DNA from: Polytrichum commune
Lineage: Eukaryota > Streptophyta > Polytrichopsida > Polytrichales > Polytrichaceae
Assembly (NCBI GenBank): GCA_950295325.1
Contig: OX485809.1
Location: 29,588,144-29,652,143, forward strand
Length of the DNA: 64,000 nucleotides
Reading direction: 5' to 3'
The translations under genes were made by a program, and so were the position numbers. The notes under the pieces are model-generated. The model made no database searches, was not told the DNA's origin, and saw nothing but the letters and a program-made list of their open reading frames with translations. Of the stretch, positions 6,492-64,000 are shown piece after piece; position 1 is the first letter of the stretch; every line of letters begins with the position of its first letter.

Positions 6492-6504
6492 CGGGCGGTA
6501 ATTC

Positions 6505-7590: not shown

Positions 7591-7599
7591 AAGCTCACC

Positions 7600-8900
7600 T
7601 AAAAGCTTTTGTGCTTTGGGGTAGTTAATTTACCCCTCCCGTATCTTGCATCACAAGTTTCCTTCGCCGGCACACATTAGCCATAAGGTTTGGATGGTTC
7701 TCATTGCTTGGAACTCTTCCGGTCTACTTAGCGCATCCGGCACCACATTTCCACGGTCCGGTTTGTGGATCAAATCCACCTTCATAAGCATCAAACTATC
7801 ATGCCACCGCAATGACTTGGAGCTCATTTGCGTTTGTATGTCAAAATACTTTTAGGACACATTGTCCGTGTAGACCTTTGTTTTGTGCGACCCCAACTAG
7901 TGTCACCACATCTTCAAGCAATGCACTACAACAAAGAAGTTTTTTGTCATGAGTTGGTTGTCTTCTTTGACAACCATGGAGCTTCATGCCCCCATATGCG
8001 ATGGCCATCCATCTTACATCAACAATCCGCCATTGGCAAAATCATTCACCCCCGTATGCCCTTCAAAAGGTTTGTCAAACTCCGCGAACTTGAGCACGGG
8101 CGGCGAAGAGAACTTGGTCTTAAGCTCCCCAAAGACTTGGTGACAAGCATCATCCCACTTTTGGGATAGCCATTTCTTTCACAAGTTGCACAAGGTTGGA
8201 CAACCATCGAGCTTTATGCTCCCATATGCAATGACCATCCATCTTGCATCAACATCCGCCAATGATAAAGTCACTCGCCCCCGTATGCACCTCAAAGGTT
8301 TGTCAAACTCCGCGAACTTGAGCACGGGCGGCGAAGACAACTTCGCGTTAAGCCCCTTAAAGACTTGGTGACAAGGCTCATCCCACTCTTGGGATAGCCA
8401 TTTCTTTCACAAGTCGGACAAGGTCGGACAACCATGGAGCTTAATACTCTTATATGCAATGGTCATGCATCTTGCATCAACAATTCGCCAATGGTAAAGT
8501 CATTTGCCCCTGTATGCACCTCAGAAGGTTTGTCAAAGTCCGCAAACTTGAGCACGGGCAGCGAAGAGAACTTGCTCTTAAGCTTCTCCAAGACTTGGTG
8601 GCAAGGCTCATCTCACTCTTGAGATAGCCATTTTTTCAACAAGGTGACTAAGATCCTAGCAACCTTAGAAAAATCTCGAATGAAGTGGTGGTAGTAGTTG
8701 GCTAGGCCATCCAATGACCTAAGCCTTTTTTTTGAATCAAGGGCCAATTCTCCTCTTGGATTGCCTTGACATTTTTCACGTTCGTCGACCAACTTCATTT
8801 GTCACCACATACCTCAAGAACTCAATCTTTCATTGAGCAAAGTTGATTTCCATCCTTTGGCGGTAATATTTTGAGCAACACATTGGTGAATACATCCTTG
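7600..8900 (-). pseudogene. RT thumb and repeated RNase H segment of element 1
   Basis: The minus strand at about 8740-8640 encodes LANYYHHFIRDFSKVA, the conserved RT connection motif. Downstream, the segment covering the RT-RNase H junction (WDEP..QVF.EL, PPVLKF, FEVHTG, IAYGS.KLDG) is present about three times with a period of 228-230 bp (boundaries near 8162, 8390 and 8620). The first catalytic Asp of RNase H (normally TDAS) is Gly in these units. Frames are broken. The rest of RNase H follows to about 7650. Confidence 0.7.
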
Positions 8901-9009
8901 TATCTCACCAACATCCCACAAATGTGGTTTGGGGGAGGCCCTTTCCTAGCCTCCCCATGAATTCCTTGGAGTTGCTCCAATTGAACCACGACCATTATTT
9001 TTTATTATT

Positions 9010-9560
9010 TTTTATTTTTCTCGTTTATTCATTTGGTCCTTTAAGACCAAATTCGACTTGGTTCCTCCTACCATAGGAGTCCTTGTCAATTTGTAGTTCA
9101 ATTCTTTGCCACGTGACGCATCACAAACGCACCGCAAGCTCACCAGCTTGCGCCTCACATCTATCATGTGAGTTTCAAAGAAGGTGACCTTTACAATGAT
9201 ATGCATTTCATCTATTTCACATGGCGTGAAATTTTGACAAAAATCCAATGTCCCACATTGAAAGCTTACATGCATCGCGGCCTCCTTTGCCTCATGCGGT
9301 CGCCCTTTGCAAACCGCACTTTGGTGGGCTTGCCCGCTTTACCGGTCCGCAAGCCCCAACTCCCTTATGAGTTTTGGGCTCATGAAGGAATGCCTTGCCT
9401 CTTTGTGAACACATGAGATCTTTTTCTCATTGATTCGGGCCATAATATACAAAAGACTTGGCCTTGGCTTAAGGCTACTAGCCTTGGCTACAAAGCCATC
9501 GTCTAATATTCGGTCCGTGGCAACAACAAGATCTAGCTTGGTCCGCGAAGCCAAACTTTT
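9010..9560 (-). pseudogene. Aspartic protease remnant of element 1
   Basis: The minus strand at 9554-9339 encodes a pattern like INEKKISCV..EARHSFMSPKLIRELGL, the flap and active-site context of a Ty3/gypsy protease. The catalytic D-T/S-G is replaced by H-K-E here. 9275-9012 encodes the following part (FTPCEIDEMHIIV), corresponding to the usual DFTVVPMDDYDVVLG region. There is no continuous frame. Confidence 0.6.
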
Positions 9561-10041
9561 TTTTCTTCTTCGGGACCATCGGCTTCAATGCTCTCGCAAT
9601 GATCCCCGCCACGACCTCAATAAATTTTGGAAATTTGAACATAGTATTCACCACGTGCTTTTCAAACCCCACCTAAAATGATGCATTTCTTACAAACCTC
9701 GTCCATTTTAGATGTATCCTTCATTTGTGCGTTCGCACATAGGCCTTAAGAGGCCTCGGGTGCCTCATTAGCACAAAGTTCATTCCAACATCATCACATA
9801 CTAAGCATTTTGGATTGGAATTTCAATCCAACATTAATGCCCTCCAAGGTTTTGGGTGCATTCGGTATTCTAGGCCCCAAATATTTTTTGAGGTTTGCGG
9901 GAGCACTTTCAAAGCACTCCACCATTTTTCCTCACCGAATCCACCATCATGCCCACCATTGTCATTAGAATCAATGGTATGGTCAAAATTCCCTTATACA
10001 TGATCCTTGTTCCAATTTGAGCCTCACAACCTTTTGGATAT
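9560..10041 (-). pseudogene. gag remnant of element 1, truncated
   Basis: The sequence aligns with the gag stretch of elements 2 and 3 (LSKKCIVLGGFQKRVVKTMF in the best-preserved copy). It ends abruptly at ...CCTTTTGGATAT, 10041, where element 2's LTR begins. The leader and primer-binding site that should follow are missing. Confidence 0.6.
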
Positions 10042-13769: not shown

Positions 13770-15200
13770 CCTTAGCCTTAGTTTCTTCAAAGTGCTTCAC
13801 CAATTCATTGGTGTTCACCATGTCTCTTGCCGCCACCCAAGCGGTTTCTTTCTCATGGTATCCTTACCATTTCACCAAGTACTCCTTTGTACATTTTCTT
13901 TCATTTTCACTTGGGATTCCTACACTTGAGGATGCCTTCCTACCTCATGTTCCAAGTGACCTCCACAAGGTCGGGACGTGGCCTAATCACTTGCTTGGGA
14001 TCGGGCCACAAGGTGTCGTCCTAAAATGACTTTCGTAATGAGACATGAAATGTGGGATGCACTTTGATCTCCGGCAGTAATTCCAACGTATACATGTTCT
14101 TCAACACTTGTTCCACAATGGAAAACGAAGCTCCAATTTTGGACATGAACTTTTGGAGTAAGGTCTTTGGGCAAGGTGAAGTTGTCCACATTCAACAACA
14201 CCTTTTCGGCCCGCCTCATACTCCACTTCGCGTCTTCCGGCATTGATTTGCACTTCGTAGCACCTTCGGGCTTTCTCCACCAACAACTTGGTCATCTCCA
14301 AGACTTGTTTACCATCCTTGGCCAAGTCCTCACCATCTAGGTTGAACTCTAGTGTTAAATGTGCCCCCTCGAGAGCTAGGTTAATAGGTTGGAGCGCATC
14401 CACTCCATAAGCCACCACGAAAGACCACCCCTTGTTAGCCAAGTGCGTGGCTACATTGCAATTACACTCCGCTCGACCCACATAGTCCGCCCAATCTCCT
14501 TGGTCCGCCCCCACCAAGTTCCTCAAGTATTGCTTCAAGACTCCATTCACACGCTCCGCTTTCCCATCCATTTGGGAATGCAAGGCCGTGCTAAACCTTA
14601 GTTTCATTCCGACCTCCTTAGAGAAATGCATTGAAAATGCACTTGTCAACTTTAGATCTTGATCCCACACAATCACTCTTGGCAACCCGTGGTGCCTCAA
14701 CCATCCTTTGAGAAAAGGCTATGCGGTCTCCAACGCGGTGGCGGTTCCCACAATCGGCACCATGTGTGCCAACTTGGCAAACCGCTCTACCATCAACAAG
14801 ATGGCATCATACCCATGTGACTCCGGCAAACTTATGATCAAGTCCATGCACATACTATGTCATGGCCCCGGCGGGATAGGCAACGGTTGCAAGAAACCGC
14901 CTTGCTTTTGGTAAGAGGCTCGGTTCACTTGGCACTTTATTCACGCCTTCACAAAGTGGGCTATATCCTCCTTTATGCACCGCCAACGGTATCTCTTTGA
15001 CACCATTCTATGGCGGTTGTTTCTTTCTCCTTTATGGCCGGGAATAGGACTATCGTATTCCTCCTTCAAAACCGATAGCCTCAACTTGCCTTGTGGCACA
15101 TACACCCAACTTTGCTTGCACTTGAACAATCCGTCCACCAACTTAACCTCTTTGAGCACCTTGCTCTTGCAAAGCTCACCTAAAAGCATTTGTGCTTTGG
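13770..15200 (-). pseudogene. Integrase with chromodomain, element 2
   Basis: Reading on the minus strand: the zinc-binding region (15189-14941, DGLFKCKQSW and GHKGERNNRHRM), then the DDE core. The 199-codon frame 14700-14101 covers RHHGLPRVIVWDQD, KAERVNGVLKQYLRN and the linker toward the C-terminus. A chromodomain follows at about 13890-13780 (KEYLVKW, stop, GYHEKE, ELVKHFEETK). The in-frame TAG at 14719-14721 splits the core and is shared with elements 1 and 3. The chromodomain places the family among the chromoviruses. Confidence 0.8.
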
Positions 15201-19769: not shown

Positions 19770-21200
19770 GCCTTAGTTTCTTCAAAGTGCTTTACCAATT
19801 CCTTGCCGTTCATCATGTCTCTTGCCGCTACCCAAACGGCTTCTTTCTCATGGTATCCTCACCATTTCACCAACTACTCCTTTGTACATTTTCTTTCCTT
19901 TTCACTTGGGCTTCCTACACTTGAGGATGCCCTCCTACCTCATGTTCCAAATGACGTCCACAAGGTCGGGACGTGGCCTAATCACTTGCTTGTGTTCGGG
20001 ACACAAGGTGTCGTCCTAAAATGACTTTCGTAATGAGACATGAAATGTCGGATGCACTTTGATCTCCGGCAGTAATTCCAATCTATACATGTCCTTGAAC
20101 ACTTGTTCCATAATGGAAAACAAAGCTCCAATTTTGGACATGAACTTTGGAGTGAGGCCTTCCGGCTAAGTGAAGTTGTTCACATTCAACAACACCTTTT
20201 GGTCCACCTCATTCTCCACTTCGCGTCTTCCGGCATTGACTTGCACTCCGTAGCACCTTCGGGCTTTCTCCACCAACAACTTGGTCATCTCCAAGTCTTG
20301 TTCACCATCCTTGGCCAAATCCTCACCATCTTGGTTGAACTCTAGTGTTGAATGTGCTCCCTCGAGAGCTAGGTTAATAGGTTGGAGCGCATCCACTCCA
20401 TAAGCCACCACCAAAGACCACCCCTTGGTAGCCAAGTGCGTGGCTACATTGCAATTACACTCCGCTCGACCCACATAGTCCGCCAAATCTCCTTGGTCCG
20501 CCCCCACCAAGTTCCTCAAGTATTGCTTCAAGACTCCATTCACATCCTCCGCTTTCTCATCCACTTGGGAATGCAAGGTCGTGCTAAACCTTAGTTTCAT
20601 TCCGACCTCCTTAGAGAAATGCATTGAAAATGCACTTGTGAACTTTGGATCTTGATCCCACACAATCACTCTTGGCAACCCGTGGTGCCTCAACCATCCT
20701 TTGAGAAAAGGCTATGCGGTCTCCAACGCGGTGGCGGCTCCCACAATCGGCACCATGTGTGCCAACTTGGCAAACCGCTCTACCATCAACAAGATGGCAT
20801 CATACCCATGTGACTCCGGCAAACTTGTGATCAAGTCCATGCACATACTATGCCATGGCGCTGACGGGATAGGCAACGGTTGCAAGAAACCGCCTTGCTT
20901 TTGGTAAGAGGCTCGGTTCATTTGAACCTTGATTCAAGCCTTCACAAAGTGGGCTATATCTTCCTTTACGCACCGCCAATGGTACCTCCATGACACCATT
21001 CTATGGCGGTTTTTTTTTTTTTCTCCTCTATGGCCGGCAATAGGGCTATCACATTTTTCCTTCAAAACCGATAGCTTCAACTTGCCTTGTGGCACAAATA
21101 CCCGACTTTGTTTGCACTTGAACAATCCGTCCACCAACTTAACCTCTTTGAGCACCTTGCTCTTGCGAAGCTCACCTAAAAGCTTTTGTGCTTTGGGGTA
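19770..21200 (-). pseudogene. Integrase with chromodomain, element 3
   Basis: On the minus strand, 21155-20934 is the zinc-binding domain. 20921-20712 is the first part of the core, with PSAPWHSMCMDLITSLPES and YDAILLMVERFAKLAHMVP holding the first catalytic Asp. After one in-frame TAG (20712-20714) the same frame continues at 20711 and runs to 20166 (RHHGLPRVIVWDQDPKFTS, the second Asp, and the Glu region). The chromodomain lies near 19885-19780 and has two stops. Apart from the stop the core keeps its D, D and E contexts. Confidence 0.85.
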
Positions 21201-35646: not shown

Positions 35647-35656
35647 CAACACATGA
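35647..35656. other. Left target-site duplication of the Mutator-like element
   Basis: CAACACATGA, repeated at 50053-50062. The 10-bp length fits the 8-11 bp range of Mutator-like elements. Confidence 0.75.
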
Positions 35657-35745
35657 GAGGGAAGCTATCTTATGAGCGATGAGCAGTGAGCGGTGAGCGG
35701 TGAGCAGTATCACATGAGCAATGAGCAGTAACATATGAGCAATGA
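35657..35745 (+). repeat. Left terminal inverted repeat of the Mutator-like element
   Basis: GCTATCTTATGAGC followed by a run of GATGAGC, AGTGAGC, GGTGAGC, AATGAGC-type units. The first 13 bases align without gaps to the right end and the next 25 or so match with a few changes. Confidence 0.75.
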
Positions 35746-35869
35746 TTCCAAATTTAGTAAAGACACACAGGTTTAGGGTACACAACCAAAATTTTGACAA
35801 ATTAATTGCATATTTTCAATTGTAAATTGTCAATATTTTAAATGAAGCACAAGTGAAAGGGCCCTATTT

Positions 35870-36100
35870 CCATGGATCATTTAAAACACTTTCAATTCAT
35901 TGCTGATTTTTATTATAATAATCCAAACCAATACATGTCATTTATTGACATCCTTATACATGTAGTTACAACCAACACTTGCACAACTACTCACATTCCA
36001 CAACACCAGCAAGTTCAAGTAGGTGCATAATCTCATTATACGTACATGTAGGTGCCATAATTGTGAGCCACTCAAACTGTTCACGGGTTGAGTTAAGGCC
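35870..36100 (-). pseudogene. Duplicate of the transposase 3' end
   Basis: This segment resembles 36430-36600, including the last codons of the transposase (LLELAG.VECE on minus) and the downstream trailer (CCAAACCAA.ACATGTCAT). It is a partial direct duplication of the final exon inside the element, separated from the main copy by the SINE. Confidence 0.6.
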
Positions 36101-36164
36101 CAAAATCTACAAATGAAAGGAAATTAGATATTAGAAATAATCAATATGTAGGTAACTACTAGGT

Positions 36165-36365
36165 TTTGAGACATCCACCTGTGGATGCGAGTTGTGTAAG
36201 AGACTGGTATTAGGTCTGTATCAACCCGGGTTCGAATCCGGTTGGTTACATTGACTGGTGCTATCCCAAATTGAGCTAGTGATAAAGTAGGAATAATCTA
36301 TAGGCGGATACCAAGAAAACGTTACTACGCGGATGTGCGTAGAATCTTATCAATTATTTTTTATT
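36165..36365 (+). repeat. tRNA-derived SINE inside the Mutator-like element
   Basis: A clear polymerase III B box GGTTCGAATCC lies at 36229-36239. A weaker A box (GCGAGTTGTGTAAGAGACTG) lies near 36187-36206. The tail to about 36365 includes CGGATGTGCGTAGAATC and T-rich sequence. It sits between the two copies of the transposase 3' end. The limits are approximate. Confidence 0.55.
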
Positions 36366-37902
36366 TTTAGAAACTTGTTATTATTTATCCATGTCAATCA
36401 ATCAAACCGCTCACGGTTGGGTCGTACTGAATCATTTGAAATACTTCCAGCCCATTGCTAATTTTTATTATAAAAATCCAAACCAAAACATGTCATATTT
36501 TGACATTCAAATATATGGTACTTAATAGACCATTTGCAATACTACTCACACTCTACAATACCAGCAAGTTCAAGTAGTCGCATGACCTCGTTATAGGTAT
36601 ATATAGGTACATGAATGAACTTGTCACTCTCGTAATCCACCTTGCACAAAAATCTAAACACATAATAAAGATGTTTACAATACACCCATTTTCCTTTCTT
36701 TCCCAATGCATGAGAGGACATTTTCGTGAAATCCGGGCATGTGTAATGCGGGATGTCGCCAATTGTGACATGATATGTGATATCATGCTTGGAGACAATG
36801 TTGATTATCACTACAAAGCCCGGATATGGAATGGCAGTGACCCCAACCACATAGTAACCCTCCATGAGTCCGGCGCCATTTGTTTTTGTGATCCACTAGC
36901 GGTGCTGTTGGATTACGACGAACTGTCTTCCCAAACCTGAATGTAGGGTGGGCGTCCGGGTTTGGTGGCATAGAAAAATGTGAGCGAGGGATGGGGAGAG
37001 TTGCGATTGTTGAAAGCCTACAACGAGGGGACAATGCCTCCCTCTGCTGTAGTTGAAATCTAGCATCTTCAAGTGCCAAAACCTCCTCTCGCGATAGATT
37101 GGTACCTATCTTCACCGGCCACGTGTTGGGTACTATAGGCCAGTCCAACACATATTTCTTCTTACTGCCACTCACACAACGTTTGATATCGTCAGGGCAA
37201 AACCAAAATTCATACTCCACATTGTTGGGAGAGTGAAATTCCTTCCTGAGCCCTTTGTATGTTGGAGCAGGTGTGCCATGTTTCCCAGTTCCGACTTTGG
37301 CATTGCACATAGTCCCTGTGATGGCCTGCAGTGCCCAACATCGTTTGGCTGAGTTAGGTGGTAATCTTGCAATGTGCCACTTGGAAGCAAGACAATCTGT
37401 CTCTAACACGGATGTAGTATGAGCCACACCATGAATTGCAGAACTCAACGATTCCTCTATGCGTTGACGAGTTGCTCGGGTGTTGGGACGAGGAATGGAA
37501 TAATTCACTTTGTCGGGTCGATGAGAGTCACAATCAGCACCCGGTGGTAGGTTGAGTTTGCGTTTGGTGGAACCAAAGAGCTTTGACCCTTCCAATGCAC
37601 AATCTCTAGTGTTGACGTCTTCTGCCCCTGGATAAGACTTCATGGCATCGGCCAACATTTTTGGATCTCCACACCTGGCAGCCGCTTTGAGTTTCAAGGA
37701 TGCCGAATCAGGACCTTTACCATCAAACCCCCTTTCAACCATGTCCGGTAATTTGCAATTTGCATGAAGGCACGGATCATGTCGTCCATTGTAGCTTCAT
37801 ATAAACAAGTCATCTTGTTGCCGGACTGTTGGAGCCATTTGTTGTGTACAGTCTCTGCAAGGTTGCATGTTAGCATTTCCGCACGCTCTTCTATTGTCAT
37901 AT

Positions 37903-40874
37903 TGTGAACCCTTTGAGTGGTCCACCACTCTGCGGGATCACTTTTAGTTAGAATGTTAGCATTAAAAGTTAGAATTGATAGGGAATTTAGGGAAAATTAG
38001 TTCATTTAGCATTTAACCTAGAAAAAGGAAGGTCAAAATGAAACTAAGTAGTGCTAGAAGATAGCAAAGTAGAAAAAATATGCTAGCTAGTAAAAGCAAC
38101 TAGCTAAGCAAATATTAGTAGATGCTAGCTATTAAGCAAATGTTAGTAGATGCTAGCTAAGCAAGTGTTAGTTTATTAGTTAGTGTGAGGCACACAAGAC
38201 TATTGGAGGTGTTTTGCGTAAGAAGACAAAACCGGCTTGAAGACTTTTGAAAAAAATTAGAAAGAGAGCAAGGGGGCTACTTGCCCACTTGCCCCCTTGC
38301 CAACTCGATGGCGGAAAAATTAGAAAGATTTCTAAAGGTTCTTTGTCGGAGCCACCTCGGCGAGAGGGTGGCAACCTCAACTGGGAAAAACCCCCGAGCC
38401 AAAATTTCGGGAAAGGGTTTGAAAAATGGATCCGGTGGAGGAGGGGTCCAACCCTTTTGTGAGAGGGTTTAAAAACCCCTCCTTCCACCTTGTAGGAACT
38501 CTTTCTTTTTCTAGTTTTTGGGCGAAGCCCTGCTTCAATGTAGTTAGGAAAAAATCCTTTAGCATGTATTCTCAATGGCTTAAGACAAGGGCTTGAGAAA
38601 CTCCTCTACTCTCTCTCCTAGTTAGAATGTGTGTTTATTAACACACCAACAAAATTATTCCTTCTTTTGTAGAGGTAGGTTGGATGTTAGAGTTTTGAGT
38701 GGAGGCATTGTAGACCTCATCTGCCAATGCCCTGAAGGCTTAGTTCAGAAGCTGGAACAAGATACTTATCATTTTTCTCTTAGAGAGATTTCATATAGCT
38801 ATCCATAGCCATTTCCCATTTGTGATTTGGTTAAGATGACAATTAGTTATGGATTTCCAAAGATGGAGTAGAAAAACTGGGTGATCTTGTGGGTAGCGGC
38901 TGCTGGATCAGACCTGCAAGCCCAATAGAAATTTTAATTCTAAGAAGTTATATTTTTCCCAAGTAGAACTTTTGTGTAGCTTTCCAAAATGGCTTAGAAC
39001 ATTTTATTTGAGCATGATTTGAATTAGATATGAATTGTGGAAGCTGGGACACATAGTTTGAGAACTTTTGGTTGACTGCTGCATTACAGAGGATCTGCTG
39101 GGTTCACTTCGGCTTACCTTTCTAATCACATATTTTTATCAAATACATCTTTTTAATATCTCTCCAGGGTCATATAGAAAGTTTGATTTGAGTTTGATTT
39201 GAATTAGATATGAATTGTTGAAGGCGAGATACATAGTTTAAGCCTTCTTGATTGACTGTTGTGTTACAAGGAGTCTGCTGAATTTTTATTAGCTTAACCT
39301 GCTGATGTCATAATTTTCCTAGTTAGAACTTGTTCATAGCTTTCCAATGGCATAAGGAAAGCCTAGATCCAACTAGTAAGGAATGTGCTATGAATTTTTG
39401 AAGTTAGAAGGTAGATAGGTGGGTTGGAAGGGTCGGTTGAATCGACCTCACACTTCCAACCCTCATAACTTTTGCATTTCTTATCCGATTAAAGTGATTT
39501 TTAGATCATTGGAAAGATAATTAGGTGCACTAAGTATAAATATTATGCTTAGGATTAAATTACAGTGCAGAATAAATACTTTATATTTTAATTGTTAACT
39601 AAGATACACTTACTACCAAACTAGTTACAAAGAAGGAGGCAAGGTTGACGCTCGGGAAGTGGAGCAAGGAAGGAGATAGTGGCTCGGCCTATATCAAGCC
39701 CATATCAACCGAAGAGAATTGAGGTAAATTAACTAACGCTAGCCTTCCATTTAGGGTTGGAGGGAGCGCGGCTAAGGTACGCATCTCTAAACCCACTCAC
39801 CTATCTCGTAAGGTCAAGTGGCTTAACCACTTGACCGCCAAGGGAATACCCAACTCCATTGTTTTCGGGGCCCTTGGTATGTTTTGTGGTAGTAGCTTCA
39901 TTTATTAGCAAGTTTCGTGTGTGGTAAGTCAGATTAATCACCGACACGACCACTTTGAATATTGTTGGTGGAAAGGTAGGGTTAATGACCCGCGAATCCA
40001 CTATTATGTTGTTGGCCCCATAAATTGGGAGTAATGGCCCCAATTTATGAACATTGCGCAACATGTTGAACCTACAGGTCGCCCATCACCCTGGTCCCAT
40101 TGAGTTGCATTTCGTGGTCTATCCAATGTTAACACACCTAACAATCAAAACATACAAAATAAATCGTGAACCCTTGTTGGCAAGAGACCCGAATCGGAAA
40201 CTTAACTCGGTAGAGTGATACCACCCTTCGAACCATTGATGTTCGAATGGGTTTGAGATGTCATTCAACCTTCAAAGGACCTGCACGAGGCCTTAAAAGG
40301 TTCCGAGGTAAGAGGTGCACCAACCAGGTAAGGGGTGATGCCTAATATGTGAATATAGTGAAGTAGGAGGTGTAAACGAAAATAAATAATTAAGAAGGAA
40401 TTTATGTGAAGGATGGGACTTAGGCCAAGTTCCCCCGCTTAGAAAACTAAATAGAACTAAATAAAGAAATAGAAAGAATTGAATGGTCCATCAAATTGTC
40501 GTTATTCCGTTCGTTGAATTAGGGTGGTATGAGTCACACCCGGTTGGGTGTATCAGAACCATCTCAATTCACAAATTAGGATTGCATTGGTTTCAAGGCT
40601 GGTGCGTCTGCGCGTAGAATAGGTTGTACGTTAAGGTTAGAACTAGATATGAAATTGGTTAGTGGAGTTTAAAGCCACACTAGTAAAAAACTAAGGCCCA
40701 ACCTCCGGAGGTACTACGACGCATATTTAATCTCCCTTAAAAATCTAACTACTGACGTTATACACCTATCATCCGGGTTCGGCTTGGGCGCCTGCAAATG
40801 CAAACCACCTTCACCGAAGGGCTTGTGTGATACTTTTAGGCTCCCTCGAAAGGGGGTGGCCCAAAAATACCACA
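37903..40874 (+). mobile_element. Family-C LTR, long copy (2972 bp), inside the transposase gene
   Basis: It begins TGTGAACCCTT and ends AATACCACA, with perfect duplications CATAT (37898-37902 and 40875-40879). It aligns with 2542-4646 but has about 0.8 kb more (37950-38770). It inserted four bases from the 5' edge of a transposase exon copy. I see no coding region in it. Confidence 0.9.
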
Positions 40875-40937
40875 CATATCCTATGAACAACACACAAATA
40901 CAAGGATAAGACAAATATAAGATAGATTATATATCTA

Positions 40938-41130
40938 GGTTTGGGTCGTTTGACCCAAAATGGCTGCCATGTTTGGGTCGAACGACCCAAACTGTTTGCG
41001 TAGTTTAGGTCGTTCGACCCAAACTGCCTACAAGGTTTGGGTCGAACGACCCAAACTGCCTGCCACATTTGGGTCGTTCAACCTAAACTGCATACAAGGT
41101 TTGGGTCGAACGACCCAAACTATTTGTTGT
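40938..41130. repeat. Palindrome array 1 (GTTTGGGTCG...CGACCCAAAC)
   Basis: Six palindromes of about 22 bp, each GTTTGGGTCG + two bases + CGACCCAAAC with minor variants, spaced about 33 bp apart. It is the same motif as at 45385-45776. It lies between two copies of the transposase exon-2 start, within the gene. Confidence 0.9.
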
Positions 41131-41135
41131 TTGTT

Positions 41136-41250
41136 GTGTACAGTCTCTGCAAGGTTGCATGTTGGCATTCTCGCACGTTCTTCTATTGTCATATCCTATG
41201 AACAACACAGAAAGACAAAGATAAGAAAAACATAAGATATATTACATTGA
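41136..41250 (-). other. Duplicated intron-exon junction of the transposase
   Basis: The branch/polypyrimidine tract, the acceptor and the first codons of exon 2 (DMTIEERA, then CNLAETVHNK) occur here. They occur again at 40930-40880 joined to 37902-37847. In the copy here the frame runs into palindrome array 1 after about 22 codons. The array and a direct duplication of roughly 110 bp thus came in together. Confidence 0.75.
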
Positions 41251-43390
41251 GTAATAAAATTTGATATGTACTTACAAGTAGCATATGACCACCCCATTGT
41301 TTATAACGAAAGTGCCAAAATCCCAACCACTCTGAAAGGCCAAAAATGCCTTCTTCGGAGGCAGCTCCAGATGACAACCACCAAGAACGAATCACATGGT
41401 ACTTGGTCTCAGCGTCGTCCATTGTTTTCGCGTCTTTGTAATCCTTGCATATTTGTTTATGTTAAAATTGCAAGAATGGTTTGATATACTTTTGGGTCAC
41501 CTTATCCAAGCTTGCGGACCAATGGAAAAGACATGTACGCTCACGTGCAACCATGGGTACTCTTGGATCACCATCCCCGTAAATCGCCCTCACCGCATTC
41601 CAATTAGCTTGAGCACTATCAGCCATAAACCCTTTGAAGTTTATGTTTGGTACACCATTTTCTGCCATGACAGCATTCAAATTTTCCCAAAAGAGAATTT
41701 GTCCTGCACCATCTTCAGATTGCATGTCACAACACGCAATAGTTAACACTTTACAGTATCGACTGTCGTACACATGGCAAGCCATGGTCGTCCAGTCCTT
41801 CAAACGTTTAACATGGTCAAACATAATCCATGAATTTTCCATATCCCCACCGACTTGCATCTTCTTCATAAGCTCCACACCACTACCTGGAAGGTCTACA
41901 GATATCTTCAAAACAAAAACTTTGTCCTTTGACTGCCCTGGAAATCGACTACCATGGACGAATTTGAAAGCAGAGTGGTCTTTGAGCGCCATAATACTAT
42001 CCATAGTTCCCATTCCACTACGCAAAAAACGCTTTGATCCAAATACAAAGTTACGACAATTTGGAGACGCAAGAGTGCTGAATTTGTCCATGACGACCTC
42101 TAGGGATGAACCAACCAAGTGATGGCCTTCGACATTTGCGGGAGATTTGAAAAGGTAATCCGCCAAGAATTGTTTGCTCGCCGCCATAACTATGGCTGAA
42201 TTTTTTGTTGTGGGTGTTTTCAATACTTCATTTGCAACGCATTGGTATGCCATGTCCAATGATTCACGGCATGCGCCATTGGCTACAGGCTGATCATGTA
42301 CACCAAGATGAATGCAAGCCTTGGACATTCCAACGGATGTGGAGTGGATGTATATGATTCGAGCATTACACAAAGCAATGCACACAGGTGTGGAACGACA
42401 TACCTTACACACGACAGTGGACTTAGTAGGGGAAACAACACCCACAGCAAATGGGATAGGAGTTGAACCGGCCCATTCAGTGTTGTTCCGGAGGCCTCCA
42501 TTGCGATTCATGTAATCACAGTAGTTATTATGATATTGGAGATGACCAGTACAAGTAGAGCGCCGAAAGGACAGTCCAAAGTCATTTTGGATATTCGTGG
42601 TTTTGGTGGTGCACCAAGGGTGACCGTCGCATATTTTGTCCATGCCGTCCATTGAGCGACCATACGTATTTGGAGCTTTGAGTGGCACAGGAGGCAAGAG
42701 AAACAAAACATCACCATTAAAAGAAGATGGTAAGTACTTGACCTCATGAACATCTATACTGTCAAAATCAATGGATGCAAGATCGGACTTTGATATTTTT
42801 CTTGACTTTGTCAACTTCAAGGCATCAACCATAGTCAACCCTGTAGATGAAGGTGAAGGGTGTAGTGGAGGACGTTGAGAAGGTGAGATTTGGGGAATCA
42901 CCTTCTTGTACATAAGACCGCAAGGGGATTTGGCTACATGTATAGGAAGTTGGGAAGGAATAGAATGAACACTTCTAAATGGAAATGGCGATGTGTTTGA
43001 AAGATCAATATATGCACAAATGTTATCTTCTGAATCTGATAGCACAAACACACTATCATCAAGGGGTTCCACCTTAACAAGTGCGATAGAGGGAATTTGA
43101 ATTGTAGATGTACCGGATTCGTTTGTCAAAATGACAGTTGAAGCTTGCATCTGAGACTCACAAAGTCCTATCATCCTAAATGAACCAGGTCCTAAGATCC
43201 ACATAAAACCAACATCAGTTCTATTTTTTGGAACCAAAATCGTTTCATACACCTCTCCATCTGCAGAATACATCTCATGCTCTAAATACATGCTCAAACT
43301 AAATAAATCCTCTGAAACACTCACATGACCATCATCTTGGAATGGCAAGATGAAGGGAACAAAAGATCCATGAGCTCTAATGGTAGCCAT

Positions 43391-43914
43391 AGAAAATAAA
43401 AATAAAACATATGAACAACACATCATAAAAATATGGGGTGAATGTTGCTTTTGTATAGAGTTGTGTGAGGAAATGAATGGAAATGAAAACGTGTAATACA
43501 ATAATGGATGGAGATGAAAGCGTGTGATACATAGCATCTAATAATACATATATGGACATAACACAATAATAGTTAGAAAATATTTACGAGCAAGATATAC
43601 ACAAAATGGCGTCAAATACTAAAAGTATTGGTAAAAATTTAAAATATATATGTGTGGACTGACGTAGATGTAGAAAGAATTAAAATTGGTTGGAAAAATA
43701 AATTATTGATCATTATGAATAGAACAAAGTAGGTGTCAGAAAATTTTGGCGGATATAACAAAAATAAACACATAATGACAAACGCGTAAAAATATCTCGT
43801 TCATTGAACGCCAATTACAACATGTGATCGTAATATATGCCGGATTTTGTGAGATAGATACATTGGAAGAATAAATGATAATACCTGACAGAAAACATAT
43901 CATAGACACCAACG
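43391..43914. promoter_or_regulatory. Divergent promoter region between the two transposon genes
   Basis: 524 bp separate the two start codons. The region is AT-rich, with TATATA-type boxes at 43546-43552 and 43645-43652. I see no palindrome array in it. Both genes probably start here, though a second promoter for the plus gene is possible at 45225. Confidence 0.5.
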
Positions 43915-44244
43915 ATGGTGGACGATGTAGAGAGGACACCCGTGAGGCCGAAGAGAAGACGTAGGAAAGCTTTGTATTTTACTTCCGAGAAAAAGAGGTT
44001 CAGCCTGAGTATGGGAAAGAAGAATGCAAATAAGGAAGGGAAAAGAAACTTGTTGAATACGGTAGAAGAAACTGTGAAGACACTGGATTTTGATGCGATG
44101 GAGGATGATGAAGGTGCAAAGAGCAAAGAAGATGTAGACGATCGTATATCAAAGTCCGAATTGAAGACGGGTTCAAAGAAGACGGCAAACAAAAAGGTAA
44201 GTCAGTTCAACATTCACATAATTTGATAGTGCATAAGTTATAAG

Positions 44245-44640
44245 TTAGGACGGAGAACCTTGTACGTTCACTCACATGTCATGTAGTATCAATTTATAGA
44301 GGTTATAAATTGGAGAGAAGAAACCCTATACATTAATGCACATGGTATATAACAGGAATTTAGGAAGGCTAGAAGTCAGGAGGAGAACGCACAGGGTTTA
44401 TAAGAACAACTTAGGAGGTGAGAAGTTGGAAGGTAAAACCCTGTACGTTAACGCACAGGGTTTATAAGAGCAACTTAGGGAGGCCAAAAGTTGGGAGCTA
44501 AAACCATGTGCGTTAACGCACATGCTTTGTGATAGCAACTTAGGAAGGCCAAAAGGTGGGAGGAGAAACCCTGTGCGTTAACGCACAGGGTTTGTAAGAG
44601 CAACTTAGGAGGCAAAAAGTTGGGAGGTCAAACGACTAGA
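44245..44640. repeat. GTTAAC palindrome tandem repeat in intron 1
   Basis: About six units of 62-70 bp. The unit is GAGCAACTTAGGAGG, then AAAAGTTGGGAGG, then AAACCCTGTGCGTTAACGCA and CAGGG. The core CCCTGTGCGTT/AACGCACAGGG is a perfect palindrome in the best copies, and outer copies are degenerate. More single copies lie at 45063-45085, 45127-45150 and 45806-45830. Confidence 0.85.
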
Positions 44641-45224
44641 AGAGCCCAAAAGTAAAACAAATATCTATTGTATAAATTTAAATCAATGTTCAGAGCGTAG
44701 GAGCAAAAAAACTATTCAAAACGGGGTTAGAATGCAAGAAATGAGAAATATGTCTACTCAAGTATTCATGCAATATGTTATAGGAGCTAGAAAATAACAC
44801 AAAATAACATAATTTTTTTCTTGCCCCGAAACCCAAAATCTACGAGGTGGCCCAAAACAAGGAAATAGATAGAAGAATGAGAAAAGAAAATGATTTCAAA
44901 CCAAAACAACATATCAGAAGAATTTGTAGCTACGGAAATTTAAATAATATAGCATATTTTTGTGTTTTTTTTGGACCCCATTAGCATTTTTTCCAGATTT
45001 AAAAGTTTTGGCAAATCTACCAATTCCAGACTCGGCCCTGGAATTTTAAATTCATGTCTAGGCCCTGTGCGTTAACGCACAGGGTCTATGCGCTAATGCA
45101 CAGTGGCCTCAAAGTCGCCAGCGCAGACCCTATGCGTTAACGCACAGGGTCTACGCTAGCAACTTTCTAACGGCTATGCGGGGCCACGAAGAGCCACGCT
45201 AAATATGGCTGCAGGGACGAGTAG

Positions 45225-45325
45225 TATAAATTGCCACACCTCCAAAGCATTCAGTCTTTTTTCTTTCATCTGTCGGACCTGAGCTCGTCGCTGCAAGCTC
45301 TCTCATCTACAGGTGCAGTACAAGG
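45225..45325 (+). promoter_or_regulatory. Possible second promoter and leader exon of the methyltransferase-like gene
   Basis: TATAAA at 45225-45230 is followed about 30 bp later by a pyrimidine-rich start region (TCAGTCTTTTTTCTTTC). A good splice donor (ACAAG/GTTTGT) is near 45324. Splicing from it to 46045 would give a transcript starting translation at 46054 (MDLEITT). This would skip the basic first exon. It is inferred from sequence only. Confidence 0.4.
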
Positions 45326-45384
45326 TTTGTTTGCACTTTCGTGATGACTCGGTAATTGCGCATAATCAGGCGTAAATTGCGGTC

Positions 45385-45776
45385 AGTTTGGGTCGTTCGA
45401 CCCAAACTGTGAGTATGGTTTGGGTAGAACGACCCAAACTGTCTACCTAGTTTGGGTCGAACGACCCAAACTGTCTACCTAGTTTGGATCGAACGACCCA
45501 AACTGTGAGCATGGTTTGGGTCGCTTGACCCAAACTGTGAGCGTGGTTTGGGTCGTTCAATCCAAACTGTTTGCCTAGTTTGGGTCGAACGACCCAAACT
45601 GTCTGCCTAGTTTGGGTCGAATGACCCAAACCACGCTCATAGTTTGGATCGAGCGACCCAAACCACGCGCAGAAAGTTTGGGTCGTTCGACCCAAACTGG
45701 CTATAGGCGATTTGGGTCGCTCGACCCAAACTTTCTGCATGGGCAGTTTGGGTCGCTCGATCCAAACCTCGCGCCT
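45385..45776. repeat. Palindrome array 2 (GTTTGGGTCG...CGACCCAAAC)
   Basis: Twelve palindromes at about 33-bp spacing. The arms are conserved, while the central two bases vary (TT, AA, CT, AG and so on) and the linkers (CTGTCTACCTA, CTGTGAGCGTG) are shared by groups. It lies in intron 1, or in the leader intron if the 45225 promoter is used. Confidence 0.92.
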
Positions 45777-48700
45777 AACTTTGGTAGACCTGTAGTTGGA
45801 CACACAGACCCTGTGCGTTAACGCACAGGGTCTGTCCTTGCAGTTTTGGGGTGAGCGGCCACCATAATCGTACAATATTTGAAGGTGCAATTGGCAGTGT
45901 CTAGAATAATTTTTGTCATTCTTCCATGTGTTCGTGGTATTATGTTGTTATTGTTGTTGCTATTGCTGATGTTTTTGTAATGTTATTGCTAATGTATTGG
46001 TACTGGTTTTGAAATATTTATGAAATTTATTTCATTTGTTTTAGGACCAATCAATGGATTTGGAGATAACGACTCCTATTTCTACTGATGATGATTCCAC
46101 CTTGCATTCAACTCAAGATCGTCCATCTCAACAAGTTCATCATCATCAGGACATATCGTCAAATCTTCATAATAAGAAAAATAAGAAAATAAATGAATCC
46201 CTCGATGATTTTGATTCGGATGAAGATAATGATGGTGATAATAAAATTTATCAAGAGAAAGTGTAGGAGCTTACGAACAAACGAAAGCTCAATTCCACTT
46301 CCACAATTTCCTCAATCCGTGCTGGACCTAATGCTCGCTTGCGTGTACCTTTATGTCGCATGGTTCCTATGCCGATTGTGCGTCCTGCTTTGAAGGGTGA
46401 CATTACTAAATTGGAGGCTGATTTTTTCAATGGTTATCGTGATGGTGACCGTGTGTTTTATATATCTGCCACCGATTCTAAGGGAAACTTTCAATTCGTG
46501 GATGATGAGGTTCGCGCATCTTGGAGCCCAAATTGGGCTCAAGCCAATTCCCTGTTTGAATCTCAATTGGATACAGATTTGTCATTGACGTCATACAAGA
46601 ACAAGATGTTTTTTATATGGGATGGAAATCACAGATTTTTTGCTTGGAAAAATTATATTGACCGTATATATACCGAAGATTATGAACGTCATGTCTTTGT
46701 GGATTCTATCATTTTGGCGCCCGAGCCTGACAACATTCCAAGTTTGTTGACTCCTATACATGACATCAACAAGTATTGTTCTAACCTATTATTTTACACT
46801 TATTTCTAGTTTATATTTTTTTCCAAATTATTTCATCATGAATCTAATCAATTTAATGTTTTTTTCAAATCAACCGAAAATTCTCACGTATCCACCAATT
46901 TGGTGCATACTTTATATCAGATGCAAAGTATTGGCACCATGCCTTTGATTTCTTCAGAAAGCAACTGGATCCAAAGAGTTATAAACGATGTGAGGAGAAG
47001 TCCGTCGAAACTTGGTATTCTTTTACACGACCAATTTTTTTGGATTACATGTACAGTGTAAGTTCTTCTACCATTGCTAATATGTGCCTTATGTTTATTC
47101 ATCTTCATTTTACATTACATCTATATGTACTTATAAATATTGATTTTTATTTTATTTTTCAGCAAGAACTTGCTGAGGCTAGCGATATTGCTCTCAACCA
47201 GTACAATGAAACTCATCCTCTTAAACGGACATGAGACGGAATTTCAAAAGCAATGTCCGCAGCTGTCAACAAAAAACGTGCAATGTTATCTTCTAGTTTT
47301 ATGAAACAACTAGCAATTGCCGACATCAACCTTACCTCTGCTTTCCTTGAAGAAGTTAAGCACCATTGGGGTTCATTTTCGGTGCCTGAAATGCTACAAG
47401 AAAAACTTCATCGTGTTGCTGTCAGTAATGTGGATGCAGAAGTCAAAGTTGGATGGCTCAAGCTTTGGAATGGCAATAGATTTGACAAAGATGCATTGCA
47501 TTTTCCAAAATCGCCCCTCTCTGATTCTGCACTTGATGGTTGGTTATCAAAGTCTACATATTGGGCACAGTTGGAAAAAAAAGCTATCGAAGAGCTTCAA
47601 AGTATTCTTTCATCTCCTCTTCAGTTGCCTGCAGATGTGCCTACTCTCTCCGAGTATATCCAAACCTGGAAGTTTGCGGCTTTCAATTCAATATTCTATC
47701 GTGAATTCCAAAGCGGAAAAGTTAAAAAACACAACGGTTGGGATGAGCAACCTAATGTTGATCTTGCTATGAAACGTGTATTATACATGTACAACCTAAT
47801 CTTATTATTTCTTTTATTTCTTTTATTCCATTTGTCAAATTGTCATAGAATATTTGACTAACAATATTTTGTGTGTAGGTATTTTCGATATGTTTTGATT
47901 CCACATAAATGCGTTATAAAGGAACCTCATTTTTTCCCAAATTGGCGTAACACTGGTGCAAGAGATTCATGCATGTTCACTACTGAGATTTGTTTGGATT
48001 GGTCGCTCCCATACTATGAGGATTGTGGTTGGTATCTTGATTGTCCTAAGGATGCATGTCCGTCAAGTGAGAAGACAATCCGTCAGATAAATTATGCTAA
48101 AAATGTGGATCCTCGTGATACTGCAATTTTGTAAGCACAAATTGTGCAACTTAAACTTAAAGAGCCAGAACCAAAAGAGACAAAACGTCGTAAGAAGAAA
48201 CATGTTCCTGAAACCAAAATACAAGGTCAATCGGAAATTTCACAACATGAAGAATTGCTTGTTCTTTCCAATGATTTGGATAAGAATCCACTTGGAGGCG
48301 AAAGTTCAAAGTCTGGGTGCGATGTATTGGAATTTCATTACTCCAGCACCTATGACGCTATTCATCGTGCGCCAACGGATATTTTGAGAAAAGAGTTATT
48401 CATACTAAAGAACTTTCTCACGCTCTCGTTTGCTCGATCTACTGCTGTCAAGAACAAGTCTGAAGGGGTGGATGTAGGCCCTCCTGAGTAGATCCAATTA
48501 CGGGAATTTATTAAAAACGTAAGTATTATTGTTTTGGTATTTTCTCTAATGTTCTTACTTTCATTTGGGTTTTATTTTGTGTCTTATATTGTGATATGTT
48601 GTGGTATTTCAGTTCAATGACAATCGCGAATTTCATGTCATGGGAAGTCCGACTCCCTTTGCCGTTGACTTGGTTTTTCTCCAATTTCCCGACGGTCTTG

Positions 48701-49998
48701 ACTTCAACCTCTCCAATAGACCTGCTGAAATTCCTCTTTAGAATAAATATAACAAGAACTGGATGGTTGCAACAATGTCCTTGTGCAAGTCCATCTTGTC
48801 TGATGATGGCGTCCTCATAGTATTTTCTGCTATCGATATGCAAACCAAGAAGGTTTTGAATTCAACCTTACACAACGGCAACATGAAAGTTCTTAGGACT
48901 TTTATTTGCCTCAATTCGTACATGGTGTTCAAGGATCCGGAGTCTCCAACCTACACCGTAAGTATAACACATCACAATTGTTTCTATTTAATTATTTTGG
49001 TGTTATTTGCATTGTATATAGTTTTAACACAATTTACATTTTTTTGTAGACTCCGGCATTTATGGCTCATGTCTTGGTAAGGGATTTTACTACCACAAAA
49101 TCCACGAGACAACCAAATTCCACTTTTTTTGGCACTGGATTGAAAAGCAAAAACTTGCTTTTCAATTTTGTGGATGAAAAAAACATGCTTCTTCAAAAAT
49201 CGAGAAGACCTTGGAGGGGGCCATATCAAAAATCGCCGCGTTTTTTTTCAAGATCTTATTGAATTGTTTACACCATCGAATGGACGCGTTGTTGATTTGA
49301 CATGTTCCACTGGAGCTTCTATCCTAGCAACACGCGCATGTGGCAGGCATCTTCTTGCATTTGAGGGTGATAATGACATGTTTTAGCACATATTGAAACC
49401 GCTTTTGGAAAACATTTTGAAAGAGGGGTCATCTAAGAAGAATATACAAGATCTCACAAAAGAAGATGATGACCTCTCGGATGAGGAGATGCTTGAATTT
49501 GAGTGTGAGTAAGTCTTAATACAATAAATTTTTATTCAATTCATTCGTTTCATTCAATTCATTGGTTCATTTTTATTTCTTCACATTATTTACATGTTTC
49601 ATTGATTTGATTTCAGGAATACGATTGGAAAGAGGACATGTCTCCCGTTTTGGGCACATAGACAATTCCTACGAAGTCCAAGCCGTAGTCCGCGTCTCCC
49701 ATCATATGCCGAGAATGTTGCAATTGCAATGTTGAATCTCGAAGATTCGGATCCAAATGAAGAATCTTGCTATAGTTCCAAAATCAATTCGCAATGCAAA
49801 GGTGCTCGAATATATATAGATGATGAGGCAAAAGATAGTTTCATGTCTAGTGCTACTACTGATGAATAAATTTTTAGACTTCATGTTGTTTATCCTTCTC
49901 AACCCTCTTATTACTAAACCCTAAAATCATCATTTTTAAGGCCACAATTCCACGGTTATAGGATATTGGTGGCCCTATTACCAAAATTTTCATCTTCC

Positions 49999-50052
49999 TC
50001 ACTGCTCATAAGTTACCGCTCATCGCTCACCGCTCATAAGATAGCACTCCCC
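49999..50052 (-). repeat. Right terminal inverted repeat of the Mutator-like element
   Basis: Plus CTGCTCATAAGTTACCGCTC, then ATCGCTCACCGCTCATAAGA, then TAGCACTCCCC: the inverted counterpart of 35657-35745. It is followed by the duplicated target CAACACATGA (50053-50062). Confidence 0.75.
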
Positions 50053-50344
50053 CAACACATGACATGCAGCGAAGTGTTGTAACTCCTCAAGTTGCCCATG
50101 GAGCTCCCCTAAATCTACTCAACAAGCCAATCTCACCACCAAATGTTGAGCAATTTGAGCCTGGGACGCAGAGGTCAACTACCATGTTGTCTCCCTCTTA
50201 CCACATCCTTCATACTACTCAGCTCTCGTGTGCAACCACTAGATTTCTTTGTAACAGACCCCGTTTCTCAAAAACCTGCGGCATACAAACAACACAAGAC
50301 ACCCTCCACCCACGTTCAGGACCTAATCCAGCTGCAGTTGTTAG

Positions 50345-61457: not shown

Positions 61458-64000
61458 CTACGATTCAGGCAGGTGATTCATGGCTTTTGTTCTTTTCAAA
61501 GGACCACCAGGACTCAAATCGTCAGAGGAGCTGTCTGGCGACACTCGTGTCGAGGAGCCAGGCTTTCTCCACCCTCCATCATTGGTTGAATCCCTGTAGA
61601 ATCGATTTCTAAAGGAAAAGCGTCTACGCGATGTAGACCTGCTCAGGAAGGAAGGGTCACTTGGTGGCATCGTCAAAGGGAATCTTGGTCTGCCCTCCTC
61701 AATAAGAAAAGAAGATTCAGGCATGATCAAATCATCATCCAACACTCCTATCCTGGAAAGTTTGTTTCTTGAGCTTGTCCTGTTTATCAAGCCGCTCCCT
61801 AGAACATTACCAAATTTATGCGGTGTAGGCTCCACAACAGTAGTTTCCTTAGGGGCAATCTTCTCAGCAGATCCGCAGCGAGGACAAGCAGGGTCTTGGC
61901 GGGAGCTATCAGGGGTAATTTGTTCAAGACATTCAGCATGGTAAGTATGGCCACAAACCAGTACACTCACAACATTGCACTCGTGATAGCCCATCACACG
62001 AGAGGCACCCCAAGGAGATCGTTGAGTAAGCAGTCGGGAACAAAGACCACAGTTCTGCAAAAAAAAAACATACATTTAACAGGTATAAACAACTAGAAAC
62101 ATCAGTGACAGACTTCCCAACAAAGACTATAGGCAATATAAATGGAAAGTCATTTGACAGCAATCATAAACACACCTATAAATTGTACATCCTATATGAA
62201 GATTCCAATGAGGTCCTTGGCACCATCATAATAAGGTAGCTCAACCTACCACCAACACAGAACCTATGACCAACTCAATGAATGGGAGAGTTTCATTTTA
62301 GAACTCAAATCTAGGACCTCCAAGGAACTCTCACTCATAAAAACTACCTTTCAATTTGCCAGTCATAGCTTCAGTGTTGGTGTTGGTTGAGCTATATTAT
62401 CTATGTAATGTCAAGCGAAGAAATATTGATCATTTTCATACCTCAGAGTGTGGACTAGCTGTGGCAGAATGTGACGTATCAGCTGTGATTTTCTCTACAC
62501 ACAGGAGACCTGATGATCTGTTGAGCCCCTCCCTGCTTACACCCCAGCTGAAATCAGAGGGACTTGTGGCACTTGCCCACCGTAGCCGCTCCTGTCGCGC
62601 ATGAGGCCCTAGCTCTGAAAACCCAGGGAGTGATGACCAGTCCGAGCTGCCTCCAGCACTAGAGCTCCTACTAGAGCCAGATCGGTGGAATGAACGGCGG
62701 CCCTCTAAGGACGACATTCGTCCTGGACCTGCTGGGGGGAACCGCCCATCATAAAACTCCCTTCGCAAGGGATTGGCAGGAACTAGGAAAGTAGACTTAG
62801 ATAACAAAGCATCGTTACACTGCGCAGATGATGGCAAGGCTGGTTTAGTTTGCCGTGTTGCAGGAACATTCATCGCATTGATGAAAGGAGTACTTTCAGG
62901 AGTGTTTGAAATCGTGGGGGGACTCGATGAGAAACGATCCTGCATAGACCACCACAAAAGTAAGGACTTGAGGAGGCAACCTGAAGAAACATCAGCTGCT
63001 AAGAAATGTCCAACACTTTATGAATAATGTGTCCTGCTTTCAGTAAGTCTAGAGACAAGCTCTAGCATTGTCACTTCAAAGAAAAAGTTGACTTTTCCAT
63101 AGCAAAAGACCTACACACTCCTGAAAGAAGGTGGATTACATGGACTATGTTCCTGCTTATAAAGAATAGCTCTATCCAGAGTCAATATTTACTGGACCTT
63201 CCCAGACATCAACTCGACCCAGAAGTAAGCCCCACGATATAAAAATTCACATAGCATATTTCCAGAAAGGACAACAAAACCTGCTCCGAAAGTAATTATT
63301 GCTGACTCCAGCAAAGCCAAGTACTGACATCCATTTTTTGTGCTTCATAAGGGAATCCTTGCCTAAACGCCTTCAGATTCATAAGGAGGAACATAAAGGC
63401 TTCAGAAGTGTCTAAGACTATGATATCATTGATCATCAGGTATCGTGTCAATAATCTCATCTCAAGTACAGACTCAAACTCAGTGGGATGACTGACCTCC
63501 TTGGAGGAATTGATGGTGGTTGAGGGGCTTGCTGCCAAGTCTGCAGCAATAACATGAAGCAATGTCAGAGCACTAAGGATTTGTATCACGATGGCAAAGA
63601 AAAAGCTCAAAGATCCATAATCTTAACACCACATCCAGTTGATTCTACTCCAAGAACAAGTGCACTGAAATGGCTGCTATACTCTTCTTTGCAGTGCAAG
63701 ATTAGAAATGTTCCACCTAGATGCTGATATGTAAACTCCCTCATGCCCAACTTACCCTTGCCCCGGAAAACACCTGATCAGGTTGATGCAACCACCTAGT
63801 AACTAATGTCAACCCTTGCTCTGTTCACTTTAGGTCACAAGGGCAGCCAGAATCTTTTACAAGTTCATCGTAACCCCTTACCTGGTTCAGCAATCATAGA
63901 ATCTCCAATTCGACCACTGGTTGAGGCAAGCGGGTTCCAAGTAAAACTGTTGGGACTTCCACCATAAAGGCTTCCAGACTGAGTCCGCGTATGAGAATGA
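61458..64000 (-). CDS. RING-H2 finger protein, plant family of unknown function (partial at 5' end)
   Basis: Four exons on the minus strand: over 64000-63882, 63540-63497 (44 bp), 62939-62442 and 62054-61458. All junctions are GT-AG and all phases join. The 5' end is outside the window. The last exon opens with the RING: NCGLCSRLL, then VLVCGHTYHAECLE, then DPACPRCG, giving Cys2, Cys, His, His, Cys, Cys2 in the RING-H2 order. The upstream exons are Ser-rich with SSDWSSLPGFSELGP and RERL-like motifs, and the tail is Ser/Arg-rich. This layout (low-complexity N-terminus, C-terminal RING with LLTQRSPW) is one I recognise from plant RING/U-box proteins without an assigned role. By family it is probably an E3 ubiquitin ligase. 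No stops or frameshifts. Confidence 0.82.

Follow-up and report, generated by a model that had tools for sequence, protein, structure and literature searches.

In a 64,000-nucleotide stretch of the Polytrichum commune genome (contig OX485809.1, positions 29,588,144 to 29,652,143 of the forward strand; hereafter the window, to which positions refer unless a contig is named) we identified the decayed remains of a Mutator-like DNA transposon that belongs to a high-copy family with two genes. This relic spans positions 35657-50052 and carries, beside its transposase gene, an accessory gene that is transcribed away from it. The reading that we favour, with a probability of about 0.45 for the whole, is that the accessory protein has a basic N-terminus followed by a ParB-like motif, then a middle region in which no known domain is recognised, and lastly a methyltransferase fold with a substituted catalytic tetrad. 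Such a protein would no longer methylate; it would instead bind, as a dimer, the element's own palindromic arrays, most likely those of the palindrome called B below. Binding would sustain expression or mobility of the element, in an anti-silencing role comparable with the one that VANC proteins have at the motif arrays of Arabidopsis VANDAL transposons. This reading draws on sequence comparison and on analogy.

The family is mobile, and its two genes move together. The sequence-only reading had proposed a search for other copies with the same ends, and a 14-mer that the two ends share, GCTATCTTATGAGC, has 161 forward and 174 reverse exact matches (335 altogether) in the 408-Mb genome, where the same pattern read backwards has none. 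Ends were paired among the first 100 listed of the 335: 46 of them pair up with a convergent neighbour 9.2-14.9 kb away (23 pairs), no convergent neighbours lie closer than 9.2 kb, and five more pairs are 18-76 kb apart. Twenty of the 23 pairs were retrieved as elements, which gives 21 with the window copy; the choice of pairs 9-15 kb apart favours full-length elements and places nested or truncated copies outside the sample. At each end, the outer 7 bp and indeed the whole 21 bp are the same in all 20 retrieved elements. A perfect 10-bp duplication flanks 16 of them, that of L033 contains a single mismatch, and three (L023, L031, L041) have no duplication. Parts of both genes occur in 21/21 elements, which bears out the earlier proposal that they belong to one mobile unit and travel together. 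All nine exon queries are matched by 18 of the 21; one or two accessory exons are missing from each of L013, L031 and L045, along with parts of others. In most copies the long aligned pieces share 90-98% identity with the window copy, with parts of L017 at about 80-85%, and a genome-wide protein search gave at least 210 exon matches (150 of 1767 candidates scored).

The window copy has the inverted ends, TGAGC repeats, 10-bp duplications and two divergent multi-exon genes that had been described from its sequence. The duplication CAACACATGA abuts both flanks (35647-35656 on the left and 50053-50062 on the right, no strand). The left terminal inverted repeat (TIR), GAGGGAAGCTATCTTATGAGC (35657-35677, plus strand), and the right one, GGGGAGTGCTATCTTATGAGC when read inwards (50032-50052, minus strand), are 21 bp each and alike at 17 of 21 positions; each is the same in all 21 elements, an identity to be read with the fact that 14 bases of the left TIR were the search pattern by which the elements were found. 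TGAGC repeats adjoin both TIRs internally, and the subterminal tandem repeats on the left lie at 35672-35745 (plus strand; 7-, 14- or 21-bp period). The duplication length lies in the 9-11 bp range of Mutator-like elements (MULEs), and the TIRs likewise agree with that class. The window copy is 14.4 kb long because it contains an insert of 2972 bp; 17 of the 20 other elements measure 10.6-12.7 kb. This nested insert (37903-40874, no strand) has TG...CA ends and a 5-bp CATAT duplication, lacks repeated ends of its own and resembles a solo long terminal repeat; it sits on the splice acceptor of transposase exon 2.

Gene models come from the copy L037, which when joined with L038 (C1:63979950-63991790) has every exon of both genes open and GT-AG introns, and which encodes a transposase of 1167 aa in two exons and an accessory protein of 1173 aa in eight. 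The eight accessory exons lie on the plus strand of the window. Exon 1 (43915-44196) encodes a basic N-terminus that by eye resembles a nuclear localisation signal, and exon 2 (46045-46772) the motif IWDGNHRFFAW, with one in-frame TAG in this copy. Exon 3 (46869-47057) has a broken frame and has lost its acceptor AG here. The middle region, exons 4 (47163-47788) and 5 (47879-48518), gave no known domain in profile searches. Exon 6 (48613-48957) encodes the first half of a permuted methyltransferase fold, with QFPD replacing DPPY; exon 7 (49050-49508), its frame broken in this copy, encodes motif I (VVDLTCSTGAS) and FEGDND, and exon 8 (49617-49869) ends at the stop codon. Overall, seven accessory exons served as queries, and in the window copy five of these contain stops and another a frame break.

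The transposase gene is on the minus strand. Exon 1 (41276-43390), with one stop in the window copy, encodes a zinc-binding N-terminal part and a DDE core with C-x2-H; exon 2 (36542-37902, boundaries from L037) is decayed here and in other copies carries the SWIM-like motif CTCPDF...YCKHLYYV. A search of 5.8 billion proteins found 47 homologues of 33-86% identity, and an alignment of 21 sequences (A1) has invariant D515, D545, D581 and C610-x2-H613, in what we take to be the order of Mutator-like transposases. The SWIM profile reached E 0.076, below its cut-off, Transposase_mut reached E 0.034 in one of 21 members, and the Pfam MULE profile did not match. By its structure the transposase is Mutator-like, although this is not proven by profile; the earlier assignment to a Mutator-like transposase with a SWIM finger agrees with the TIRs, the 10-bp duplications and the SWIM-like motif, and the Pfam MULE profile did not confirm it. 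No relatives of the transposase were found in viral contigs, a tblastn search of plasmids for bacterial Mutator transposases with P0011 and P0002 gave four chance-level matches in total, and a PDB sequence search gave nothing useful.

The last third of the accessory protein matches N6/N4 DNA methyltransferases. The PHROG family phrog_67 matches at E 2.3e-8 for the exon pair that encodes this fold and at 3.9e-7 for the protein; Pfam PF01555 matches the exon pair at E 2.5e-4 over profile positions 30-218 of 221, with 21.5 bits against a curated cut-off of 26.7, and the full protein at E 0.32 only. Judged by these profiles the accessory protein is of methyltransferase ancestry, as the sequence-only reading had claimed for the second gene. 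Of the four profile families that it had named, N6_N4_Mtase was thereby recovered, below its cut-off, ParBc and MULE were not, and SWIM reached only the E value given above. The catalytic tetrad, however, is not [DNS]PP[YFW]: among the 20 elements that hold this stretch (L045 is without it), 19 read QFPD and one QFLD. The query of exons 6-7 found 29 database relatives, 15 of which cover the tetrad; seven of these read QFPD, none reads DPPY, and the other eight have QFSD, QIPN, QFPY, QFLD (twice), QFPN (twice) and NFLD. A 948-aa accessory protein used as the query retrieved nothing from the database, the exon-sized relatives lying outside its length range. Motif I keeps its D, C, T and G, and the protein may have retained the binding of S-adenosylmethionine (SAM). 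Methylation is doubtful because the catalytic DPPY reads QFPD, and methyl transfer by this protein is unlikely. The absence of DPPY from all 20 elements and all 15 relatives that cover the stretch weighs against the suggestion that the transposon marks its own DNA.

The motif IWDGNHRFFAW is present in most copies, altered in some and absent from L031. It fits the ParB core motif, [ILV]-x-[DAG]-G-x-[HR]-R-x-x-A. No ParB profile in Pfam, NCBIfam or PHROGs matches the accessory protein, and the ParB label is plausible but unproven.

Both genes have been under purifying selection, and the accessory gene as a whole has been held about as strictly as the transposase. Codon changes of a single base, compared across the 21 copies, were classed as private, mostly postdating insertion, or as shared, mostly dating from the time when the element was spreading. 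Excluded were codons that had changed more than once (29 transposase and 54 accessory codons), those present in fewer than 12 copies and those whose commonest form is a stop. In the accessory gene, private changes number 413 non-synonymous and 137 synonymous, a ratio of non-synonymous to synonymous polymorphism (pN/pS) of 0.80, and shared changes 154 and 164, a pN/pS of 0.25 (Fisher p 4e-15). The corresponding values for the transposase are 0.81 and 0.30. Shared changes give 0.92-1.12 in the two wrong frames. Private changes lean towards C>T or G>A (638 of 1023 in 19 copies, with L017 and L035 left out), which are only 1.3 times likelier at CpG than at other C/G positions; this bias fits host methylation in all contexts, without proving it.

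The family is also mosaic. Between L037 and L017, exons 2-3 of the accessory gene differ at a synonymous divergence (dS) of 0.59 and a non-synonymous divergence (dN) of 0.064, where dS is 0.13 for the transposase and 0.04 for exons 6-7. In L023 and L027, which are recombinants, the start, transposase and end are of L037 type and exons 2-3 of L017 type. These patterns mark the ParB-like part as an old, conserved module, exchanged between elements.

Two 22-bp palindromes form arrays in the introns: A, GTTTGGGTCGNNCGACCCAAAC, which recurs every 32 bp in both the transposase intron and accessory intron 1, and B, CCCTGTGCGTTAACGCACAGGG, with a period of about 64 bp, in accessory intron 1. With at most three mismatches allowed per site, 18 A and 6 B are counted in the window copy and neither palindrome in the rest of the window. 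Six A stand in the transposase intron (40939-41121, no strand), and the array of accessory intron 1 (44439-45830, no strand) has twelve A at 45386-45767 and six B at 44439, 44504, 44569, 45063, 45128 and 45809. Numbers per element range from 0 to 20 for A and from 6 to 58 for B, by the same count. L017 and L035 have no A and many B; their spacers differ, with 53-bp besides 64/65-bp units, and the B core is intact. Palindrome A has matching arms around two central bases that vary freely. In the element formed by L045 and L046 we counted 58 palindromes B (element coordinates 5770-9829), and accessory exons 5 and 6 are missing from it. Another repeated stretch of the window (5707-28950) also has perfect 22-bp palindromes, GGACTTCCATNNATGGAAGTCC and GGCGCTGTCCCGGGACAGCGCC, which recur there, often about 475 bp apart.

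Palindrome B is confined to the transposon family in the part of the genome examined. Its exact core occurs at 490 places, and the first 50 listed all lie inside TIR-bounded stretches of the family, which make up 0.83% of the 21.2 Mb that hold these 50. Normally spaced pairs of ends enclose 29 of them, and pairs 50, 18 and 27 kb wide enclose 6, 14 and 1, respectively; the wide pairs may hold nested insertions.

Family-specific arrays of a non-coding motif are also what links this element to VANDAL21 of Arabidopsis. In the available portion of the VANDAL21 study, VANC21 binds arrays of YAGTATTAY in introns and other non-coding parts of the transposon and lowers methylation there (PMC5735166). 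Both systems are MULEs with an accessory gene and a short motif arrayed in introns or non-coding parts; as that portion describes it, the VANDAL21 motif varies in copy number between copies and is dense in the family and rare elsewhere (PMC5735166). The likeness is one of description, and the VANDAL21 motif is a 9-mer in one orientation, unlike the 22-bp palindromes here (PMC5735166). Among the places listed, arrays of this VANC type were found for B (the first 50 of 490) and not for A (41 of 100 inside the family). The earlier suggestion that the transposon protects itself from silencing may hold, through binding rather than methylating.

Several observations weigh against the anti-silencing reading. 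An hhalign comparison with six phage proteins of ParB-methyltransferase type (ParB assigned by eye) gave no ParB match, which with the profile results leaves the earlier ParB-like claim upheld by the motif and not by these searches; the methyltransferase tail aligned over 66 columns at E 0.054 and a probability of 1%. Palindrome A is not specific to the family, because of the first 100 listed of its exact core matches (565 + 537) 41 lie inside and 59 outside. A candidate link between palindrome A and the ParB-like haplotype was rejected: L023 and L027 keep A arrays together with L017-type exons 2-3. The repeat at 5.7-29 kb of the window has 13 perfect palindromes of other sequence, compared with 10 in the element, so the mere presence of palindromes is no sure sign that the accessory protein binds there. 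For exons 6-7 alone the contrast between private (0.59) and shared (0.44) pN/pS is not significant (p 0.51). Finally, small sets of changes are noisy, because a non-coding control read as codons gave shared ratios of 1.53, 0.76 and 0.57 by frame, from small numbers and none with p < 0.2.

The main rival, somewhat unlikely in our judgement, is that the accessory protein is a transposition helper that works on the TGAGC-rich ends or helps to capture targets, the intron palindromes being unrelated to it. Mutator elements have second genes in helper roles, such as mudrB and VANB, and both the TGAGC repeats at the ends and the selection on the accessory gene along with the transposase agree with such a role. 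What a helper leaves unexplained is palindrome B, which is letter-perfect, arrayed and found only inside the family at the 50 places examined. A second rival, for which we see rather little chance, is that the arrays are kept for transcription or RNA processing, as promoters, enhancers or intron hairpins read by host factors. Their positions in the first accessory intron and the transposase intron would suit this, as would the occurrence of A beside the reading frames of another repeat family; the variable centre and matching arms of A, however, fit dimer binding to DNA, although they do not name the protein.

Quite improbable is a working DNA methyltransferase with a non-canonical catalytic motif that puts N6-methyladenine (6mA) or N4-methylcytosine (4mC) on the element's own DNA. 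The methyltransferase fold, a near-normal SAM-binding motif I, the acidic FEGDND and purifying selection on the gene all speak for it, and 4mC is an epigenetic mark in bdelloid rotifers, according to the part of that report available (PMC8885841). It is opposed by the loss of DPPY from every element and relative that covers the tetrad, at a place where, by eye, the phage enzyme M.PhiCh1-I reads DPPY. MULEs do capture host gene fragments, as the accessible text of one study describes (PMC6446971), but the idea that the accessory gene is such a passenger, a host or bacterial gene taken up as in Pack-MULEs and useless to the element, is hardly tenable given a shared pN/pS of 0.25, as low as that of the transposase, and parts of the gene in 21/21 elements.

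Two of the places where A lies outside the family were retrieved; they are members of a single further repeat family. In the first (L064, C1:620100-625000), 20 A palindromes surround open reading frames with FWLIDGQHSVEASKK and GDCIFNVFGGSKPIFAAM; the second (L065, C1:32555600-32557600) has 16 and encodes a relative of the first L064 frame (74% over 289 aa). By eye, and in L064 only, FWLIDGQHSVEASKK is a ParB-like motif and GDCIFNVFGGSKPIFAAM a broken methyltransferase-like motif; profiles did not confirm them, phrog_1033 ('ParB-like partition protein') reaching E 0.17 only, and the L064 products have no similarity to the accessory protein. A bolder generalisation, which we regard as doubtful, is that plant transposons of separate descent each acquired a ParB-methyltransferase protein whose catalysis was then lost and which came to read palindromic arrays, as a parallel to VANC for anti-silencing or cis-marking.

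ParB-methyltransferase genes have already been reported in algal transposons, in the portion available of the study concerned (PMC12477816). There, Sola1-1_Ec32 of Ectocarpus likewise carries transposase and accessory gene on opposite strands, the latter encoding 1104 aa with ParB-like and N4/N6 methyltransferase domains; the element differs in having a Sola transposase and a brown algal host, and that portion makes no mention of palindrome arrays (PMC12477816). M.PhiCh1-I, from the Natrialba halophage PhiCh1, also has a ParB-like motif, LIADGEHRWRAAK (by eye), followed by a permuted N6/N4 methyltransferase; in this comparison DLVLTDPPYGIDID faces DLVFLQFPDGLDFN without a gap, by eye, and the tblastn match has E 0.5 only. 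Unlike the accessory gene, with its QFPD and eight exons, the phage gene has an intact DPPY and no introns.

Searches of an open-licence library turned up no plant MULE reported to carry such an accessory gene. The palindrome arrays in its introns are a new observation. If our reading holds, it would show that ParB-methyltransferase genes are under selection in a plant transposon family, beyond the algal ones, and that such an enzyme can outlast the loss of its catalytic motif. The 22-bp palindrome would then be a concrete candidate binding site for self-recognition and silencing resistance of a plant transposon.

No Rfam families or tRNA genes were found in the window. Outside the element, two similar open reading frames on the minus strand (14101-14718 and 20166-20711) look by eye like Ty3-type integrases, and reading frames at 61458-63017, also on the minus strand, resemble by eye a plant RING-finger host gene.

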